Origin: Clostridia bacterium | GTDB lineage: Bacteria > UBA6262 > WVXT01 > JAUXBS01 | Assembly (NCBI GenBank): GCA_030618495.1 | Contig: JAUXDE010000069.1 | Coordinates: 1-9,420 of the forward strand | Length of the DNA stretch: 9,420 bases | Direction of reading: 5' to 3' | Position numbers and translations under genes: made by a program | Part shown: positions 5,249 to 6,244 of the stretch, piece by piece | Layout: each line of letters starts with the position of its first letter | Position numbering within the stretch: the first letter of the stretch is position 1 | The notes under the pieces: model-generated | Database searches by the model: none | Told to the model about the DNA's origin: nothing | The model's input: the letters and a program-made list of their open reading frames with translations, nothing else

Positions 5249-6244
5249 ATGAAATCTAAAGAAAAAATTATTGTGGAGGAAACAGGATGCGATGAGGAGC
5301 AGGCGAAGCTATCTCTGCGTGAGAGCGGAGATAACCTGCAAAAGGCAATTAAATCGATAGCATCCACGCTAAAATACATTACGGTTATAAAAAGTAAATT
5401 TGTTTGCGAAGAAATCAGCACATACGGACTGTTTACGGTAATTGTCAATCTGCGCAAAGACATTATTATCCGACAGGCTGCGGTCATGGCATATAATCCT
5501 GCTATTTATGAAAACGAGTTGGATTTAAAATGGCATATTTTCGAGAAAAAGCTGTATGCCCTACGCTTGCATAAAGGAAGCCTTCAGGAAACAACAATAA
5601 AATTTGAACAGGATTTGAACCGGCAGATTAGAAAGAACTTTAAGCAAACTTTTTTTCAGTTAATCAGGGATAAGAAGGAAAATGAATTGATAGAGCTCTT
5701 GAGGTCCGTGGTTTCCGGATCTCTTTCCACCAGGGATGTGCGAATGATTTTAAAAACGGAAGAACTTAGCCTTAACCAGTTCAGGGAACTTACGGAGGAA
5801 AGCATATCCGTTGCTGAAAAGAAGAATAACGATAATGAATACAATAGGGAAATAGTACTGGAAACGGAGCTGATTGAAGATGATGGGATAGGTGACTCCA
5901 TAGACGTGGATAAGTTGAAAGAAAACGATACAGTTATGACTAACATTACTGACAGCAGGGATATTGCCCAGTACCTTTCAAGTCTTCTGGTCGGGAAGAA
6001 GAGGGACATGGTGATCCCACTGACTGCAACTGTGGAAAAAATAAGGCAGAAGGATAATGATTTTATTGTTGATACGAGATTCAGTCCCGGAATTATTGGA
6101 AGGGCGCGGGTTAATAGAAAAATAAAGATAAAAATGGTAAAGGATAAGTTTGAAATAGTCGCGGTTAGAAGGAAAGTACTGTGGTTTTTGGTTACGTTGA
6201 TAATAATGGGAGTGCTGGCTTATCTGTTGTTGAACGCAAGGTAA
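5249..6244 (+). CDS. tail-anchored protein with an N-terminal UBA/EF-Ts-like motif, function unknown
   Basis: I do not recognise this 331-residue protein as a named family. Residues about 6-40 (VEETGCDEEQAKLSL, then GDNLQKAIKSI) look like the small three-helix UBA-like fold found at the N-terminus of EF-Ts and in archaeal NAC. The EF-Ts encoded downstream in this window has a similar string ([20 protein letters not shown]). Residues about 45-185 are mixed and charged, with helical stretches. Residues about 190-235 are an acidic, Asn/Asp/Glu-rich linker. Residues about 238-305 form a compact, beta-rich basic segment (VIPLTATVEKI, FIVDTRFSPGIIGRARVNR). Residues about 310-329 are a clear hydrophobic helix (VLWFLVTLIIMGVLAYLLL), followed by only a few residues: a tail anchor, with the bulk predicted cytoplasmic. 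It lies 23 nt after xerC, with no strong ribosome binding site, and 154 nt before rpsB. A ribosome- or membrane-linked role is only an inference from the UBA-like motif and position. Confidence 0.85.
   Translation: MKSKEKIIVEETGCDEEQAKLSLRESGDNLQKAIKSIASTLKYITVIKSKFVCEEISTYGLFTVIVNLRKDIIIRQAAVMAYNPAIYENELDLKWHIFEKKLYALRLHKGSLQETTIKFEQDLNRQIRKNFKQTFFQLIRDKKENELIELLRSVVSGSLSTRDVRMILKTEELSLNQFRELTEESISVAEKKNNDNEYNREIVLETELIEDDGIGDSIDVDKLKENDTVMTNITDSRDIAQYLSSLLVGKKRDMVIPLTATVEKIRQKDNDFIVDTRFSPGIIGRARVNRKIKIKMVKDKFEIVAVRRKVLWFLVTLIIMGVLAYLLLNAR

Follow-up and report, generated by a model that had tools for sequence, protein, structure and literature searches.

A predicted tail-anchored protein with a UBA-like head, encoded alone between xerC and rpsB, may descend from a flagellar gene module

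Why should a gene for a putative membrane protein stand by itself between a recombinase gene and the genes rpsB-tsf? The question is raised by a stretch of 9,420 nucleotides (the window), in which all features described below lie on the forward strand. The gene in question, termed X in this article (5249..6244), directly follows xerC, which encodes a tyrosine recombinase (4338..5225; identified by Pfam matches and synteny), and constitutes everything between xerC and rpsB (6399..7169). The left flank of this slot consists of a gene that we take, from established knowledge, to be dprA (760..1866) and of topA (2100..4232); on the right, rpsB is followed by tsf, which encodes EF-Ts (7156..8016; examined by hhalign comparison), pyrH (8018..8758) and frr (8777..9334). 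The genes dprA, topA, rpsB, pyrH and frr were placed by the similarity of neighbouring genes across loci. The window also holds a LysM-domain protein interrupted by the window edge (1-705), a relative of which (L012:4456-5406) starts like a signal peptide and contains an acidic stretch. Between dprA and topA lies a 68-aa open reading frame (1884-2090) with no more than a weak Pfam match; genomes of the same order have a conserved 62-aa equivalent in the corresponding position (for example, L015:2985-3173). The search for RNA elements in the window gave no Rfam match.

The open reading frame of X is genuine and evolves under purifying selection. It consists of 331 codons beginning with an ATG that is conserved in an alignment with six close homologues, and occurs as a single copy in the 1.69 Mb genome; a scan of genome contigs with the single X sequence returned no match. 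The closest kin of the window in our sample are five genomes of one order, the next level of relatedness being the same domain. Identity of X to its homologues is 63% within the genus and 42-43% in four genomes belonging to the same order. The named related loci come from Brevinematales and from MAGs labelled Clostridia, and the latter label is doubtful given the kinship. Between G002 and G004, X and rpsB both have a dN/dS ratio of 0.15 and xerC one of 0.10, which indicates that X is not decaying there; the two closest pairs, G002-G005 and G002-G003, have changed too little to be informative. X is kept in all six sampled genomes of the window's order and in all five of another small phylum, and in both groups the reading frame is open and full-length except in fragments at contig ends.

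The sequence-only reading of the window had likened the N-terminal segment of X to the UBA-like modules of EF-Ts and archaeal NAC, and this likeness has held up well. Sequence profiles, hhalign and comparison of AlphaFold2 (AF2) models agree on a UBA-like bundle of three helices at the N-terminus (residues 4-41, 5258..5371). In the window protein, the Pfam profile UBA_HYPK matches residues 7-36 with E = 1.3e-3, which is below the curated cut-off. When 30 family members were scanned, UBA_HYPK reached at best E = 7e-5, UBA_8 reached 1.5e-6, and UBA_4 exceeded its cut-off in one member (L064, E = 5e-5); the archaeal NAC profile TIGR00264 matches nine members (best E = 4e-4), with only its UBA end aligned. 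The family's UBA columns align to the EF-Ts UBA with an hhalign probability of 96.6% (pairwise E = 6.5e-10), and the top PDB sequence match for the family is 1tr8 (E = 0.048). AF2 was run on seven sequences (mean pLDDT 73.8), and the three-helix bundle that had been envisaged is predicted over residues 1-41, with helices at 4-12, 16-25 and 30-41. The modelled head also matches eukaryotic UBA domains structurally. Its VIA scores are Z = 7.4 against the EF-Ts UBA (42 residues, rmsd 2.2), 7.1 against the NAC-alpha UBA and 6.3 against archaeal NAC; for three-helix bundles of 40 residues, Z values of 6-7 are unconvincing alone and become convincing when the sequence profiles are added.

Behind the head follows a segment that the earlier reading did not mention, a beta3-alpha4-beta middle domain (about residues 42-175, 5372..5773) characterised by the AF2 model, structure search and a domain profile. 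Modelled alone, residues 42-175 give a confident predicted fold (pLDDT 89.9, pTM 0.85). The domain has no convincing match in the PDB: Foldseek gave nothing at E <= 0.001, MHC-like structures reached a TM of only ~0.3, and the best VIA score is Z = 4.7; such failed matching is no proof of a new fold. We considered an EF-Ts-like core, as the hhalign match of the whole protein ran past the UBA and EF-Ts headed the Foldseek list. This candidate was rejected when the domains, tested separately, matched only at the UBA; with either the middle domain or the barrel described below, hhalign gave a probability of <1% against the EF-Ts core. EF-Ts itself is short (~198-205 aa) in three of the related loci (L014:5339-5935, L015:8083-8679 and L062:5644-6261), without the large central part of the core that is found in the 286-aa EF-Ts of the window.

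The remainder of the protein comprises an acidic linker, a barrel and a membrane helix, much as had been read from the sequence. The linker (about residues 176-199, 5774..5845) is acidic-rich and modelled with low confidence, with a predicted disordered stretch at 178-199. The beta-rich segment, previously thought to begin at residue 238, is predicted to start earlier, at ~202, and to form a small beta barrel resembling SH3, tudor and eIF5A N-terminal domains (about residues 200-298, 5846..6142; AF2, structure comparison and domain scoring). The barrel compares with the N-terminal barrel of eIF5A at Z = 7.1 and with tandem tudor barrels at Z of ~5; it is of a common small-barrel type, and therefore no function can be derived from it. 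Hydropathy places a single transmembrane helix at about residues 308-328 (6170..6232), where the Kyte-Doolittle maximum is 2.71 over 310-328, and the AF2 model has a C-terminal helix at 300-330. With a predicted tail of 3 residues, X has by both hydropathy and AF2 the layout of a tail-anchored protein, defined as one C-terminal hydrophobic helix with a tail of <10 residues. Arginines and a lysine stand just before the helix, which by the positive-inside rule would place the UBA in the cytoplasm.

A profile built from 30 homologues finds X in ~34 of 386 genomes sampled across the domain, and on sequence grounds the family is widespread, uncharacterised and close to the DUF4899 and LIC10486 families. 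According to domain-by-domain scoring, the barrel is the best-kept part and is present in every member. The UBA is missing from one Brevinematales paralogue, from G213 and from the f117 family, where X is reduced to the barrel (129-158 aa) and still follows dprA-topA-xerC (L093:7153-7542, L074:1113-1589 and L075:6652-7107). Four non-flagellate families lack the membrane helix. Members lacking the UBA or the helix show that the family can do without either of them. In f198, f58 and f117 (loci L062, L063, L068, L069 and L093), the C-terminus of X is instead a short run of aromatic and basic residues (WWKDLLRIFSLQK, WWEKILHW and FFKRFLKFF), which may form an amphipathic membrane helix or anchor. 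In flagellates, every X protein examined terminates in a hydrophobic helix (hydropathy 2.4-3.7 over 19 residues) with a tail of 0-9 residues. Some genomes carry two paralogues, namely G288, where two tandem X genes lie directly upstream of sigma-28 (L066:1151-3291), G151, and the Brevinematales genomes G022 and G169. We rejected the presence of X in ordinary Firmicutes: among 149 sampled genomes of that phylum a full match occurs in only two, apart from recognised flagellar genes. Two Firmicutes-like genomes, family f296, encode a full-length X, complete with UBA and membrane helix, away from any recognised flagellar gene (L102:650-1663 and L104:12748-13788). Weak matches to the UBA alone in G082, G101, G113, G224 and G284 were not counted as X because a comparable match in G001 (C144:12804-12932) falls inside its tsf gene.

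In flagellated genomes X has a characteristic address. Of the 386 sampled genomes 172 have FlhA, as do 19 of the 34 carriers of X, and in 12 flagellate genomes X lies immediately upstream of sigma-28. The usual order is flhA-flhF-flhG-flgV-X-sigma28-fapA, with flgV where it could be recognised and fapA often following; the identities of FlhF (an SRP54-type GTPase), FlhG, sigma-28/WhiG and FapA were confirmed with Pfam and NCBIfam. The small gene that separates flhG from X fits FlgV (BB0268), described as a flagellar basal-body protein with two transmembrane helices, encoded where the FlhF/FlhG sub-module meets the sigma-28/FapA sub-module (PMC11607428). Identification of X itself with FlgV/BB0268 was rejected, FlgV being the small two-helix neighbour and both genes standing side by side. 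The text of the same paper, in which UBA is not mentioned, refers to a "TM + HTH" protein in the sigma-28 sub-module; the paper's Figure 2 labels the domains of all genes, and X may have been noticed earlier in that figure or in the supplements. Flagellates also have copies of X outside the flagellar operon (L020, L021, L081 and L082), and a Brevinematales paralogue (L060:6890-9851) lies ~1 kb from rpsB-tsf-pyrH in divergent orientation in a flagellated genome.

FlhA is absent from 15 of the 34 genomes with X, including that of the window, which lacks FlhF and FapA too. Neither FapA nor FlhF was found above cut-off in any of 18 non-flagellate carriers, and both were present in the three flagellate controls; G386-G388 are counted as non-flagellate by the FapA and FlhF tests and not by FlhA, which is absent in the other 15. 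The expectation that the gene would stay next to xerC or rpsB was borne out among these carriers: X directly follows xerC in 15 of the 18, and directly precedes rpsB in 11 genomes of two phylum-level groups. Within the limits of their contigs, all six genomes of the window's order have the arrangement dprA-topA-xerC-X-rpsB-tsf-pyrH-frr, and the longer contigs continue with uppS-cdsA-dxr-rseP-ispG. In the window, X adjoins xerC and rpsB, and not sigma-28 or flhFG. The flagellated layout corresponding to this order is seen in G331 and G057, two genomes of one family in which rpsB-tsf-pyrH-frr-uppS-cdsA-dxr comes straight after sig28-fapA, read in the same direction; the G331 contig also carries dprA-topA, upstream of its flhB-flhA-flhF-flhG genes. 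Bacillus subtilis has this layout as well. The window thus keeps the G331-type chromosome order without the flagellar operon, whose position is occupied by X alone. X was detected in neither G331 nor G057, and no genome searched has a flagellar operon that both contains X and is located between xerC and rpsB; the ancestral state was consequently inferred by combining genomes.

The X proteins of non-flagellates form one clade (support 97/96, recovered in 96% of bootstrap trees) in a tree with shortened proteins excluded, long branches and an arbitrary root; G425 and G503, presumed to be flagellated, were grouped in it with the flagellates. The single clade suggests one split into a free-standing form, which later spread by descent or transfer. 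An order of events in which the flagellar operon came first and was lost later is parsimonious. Taken together, we put the probability at roughly 60% that X represents a family of membrane-anchored adaptors that belonged ancestrally to the flagellar module, and that X was kept for a flagellum-independent role when the operon was lost. To what was computed (the family, its domains, synteny, the absence of flagellar genes, selection and the single clade), this reading adds a direction of loss, a topology, an adaptor role and a partner, all of which we infer.

On this reading X would have belonged ancestrally to the flhF-flhG-flgV-sigma28-fapA module, and the lineage of the window and its relatives would have lost the flagellar operon from between xerC and rpsB, with X alone retained. 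The membrane helix would anchor X at the inner surface of the cytoplasmic membrane, the barrel and middle domain would serve as a conserved platform, and the flexible N-terminal UBA would capture a soluble partner and bring it to the membrane. In flagellates the natural partner might be encoded by a neighbouring gene, for example the SRP-type GTPase FlhF, and in non-flagellates a housekeeping protein such as Ffh, FtsY or EF-Tu. Reportedly, as attributed to Jomaa et al. in 2022, the UBA of NAC-alpha contacts the SRP54 NG domain during signal-sequence handover. FlhF is an attractive partner, being specified by a neighbouring gene and paralogous to Ffh and FtsY (PMC7218170). A more specific form of the idea, which we regard as speculative and rather doubtful, is that X is a general bacterial membrane receptor whose NAC-like UBA docks either ribosome-bound EF-Tu or an SRP-type GTPase, the latter being FlhF in flagellates and Ffh or FtsY in non-flagellates, that it thereby guides the membrane insertion or placement of large complexes, and that it outlived the flagellum through this role.

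One alternative is that of the sequence-only reading, namely that the UBA tethers EF-Tu, the ribosome or nascent-chain factors to the membrane, the rpsB-tsf neighbourhood reflecting co-regulation. The resemblance to the UBAs of EF-Ts and NAC, the latter acting in NAC-alpha at the ribosome exit (PMC12830823), keeps a translation-linked function conceivable, and both the retained adjacency to rpsB in two phylum-level groups and the nearby divergent Brevinematales copy agree with it. However, the 12 flagellate homologues lie upstream of sigma-28 and not of ribosomal genes, X has neither the EF-Ts core nor a Pfam NAC-domain match, and UBA folds bind many unrelated partners. The link between X and the translation genes is probably a by-product of chromosome layout; the rpsB-tsf neighbours belong to the flagellar slot, which weakens the ribosome-based reading, and we consider the tether unlikely, if still worth keeping in mind.

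A further alternative reverses the order of events, with X ancestral in topA-xerC-X-rpsB, where it would have had a general membrane function, and later recruited into the flagellar operon, which in some lineages occupies that place. The copies outside the flagellar operon in flagellates and in the Firmicutes-like family (L102) are consistent with such an origin, as is the single non-flagellate clade in an arbitrarily rooted tree, but the families in which X is associated with sigma-28 outnumber those with the free-standing form and are more divergent, and we judge the reversed order improbable. That X is a functionless, decaying remnant of a lost operon has very little probability: the other flagellar genes tested are gone and some lineages have X cut to the barrel or without its helix, but a dN/dS like that of neighbouring essential genes and the conservation of open frames in both small groups largely refute it.

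Our preferred reading, the retention of X after loss of the flagellar operon, suggests that a protein counted as "flagellar" serves some purpose apart from the flagellum as well; such a role is implied by the occurrence of X alone, in the operon's own slot and under purifying selection, in several non-flagellate lineages. The flagellar superoperon still contains genes without an assigned function, and X offers a clean means to separate the flagellar from the general functions of the FlhF/FlhG/FlgV/sigma-28 module. It also adds a bacterial membrane-anchored family to the few known bacterial UBA proteins.

Among known systems, the nearest relatives by sequence are LIC10486 (NF047678) and DUF4899 (PF16240), two uncharacterised families with no function assigned to either. 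Flagellate members of the X family match both over the middle domain and barrel (L020 with E = 1.6e-9 and 1e-4, respectively), and each is matched by 8 of the 30 members, which supports homology through intermediates; all matches stay below the curated cut-offs, reaching 37 bits (cut-off 500) and 22 bits (cut-off 25), and the window protein has none. The papers found on LIC10486 concern antigen arrays, and our literature search returned no paper text on DUF4899 and none joining UBA with flagellar-operon terms. EF-Ts and X have the N-terminal UBA-like bundle in common, whereas the EF-Ts core domains are not matched by X, and X has an additional barrel and membrane helix. Archaeal NAC, NAC-alpha and HYPK provide the best named profile relatives of the UBA; theirs is C-terminal in proteins with no membrane anchor, while that of X is N-terminal in an anchored protein, and the Pfam matches of the window protein and 30 members include no NAC domain. 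The C-terminal region of MurQ contains a UBA-like bundle as in X (VIA Z = 6.6, weak NCBIfam matches), the remainder of MurQ being an enzyme unrelated to X. FlgV is, like X, a membrane protein of the flagellar sub-module between FlhG and sigma-28, but has two transmembrane helices and a disordered tail, without UBA or barrel; and whereas FlgV is described as always lying inside flagellar superoperons (PMC11607428), X persists also in genomes without flagella.
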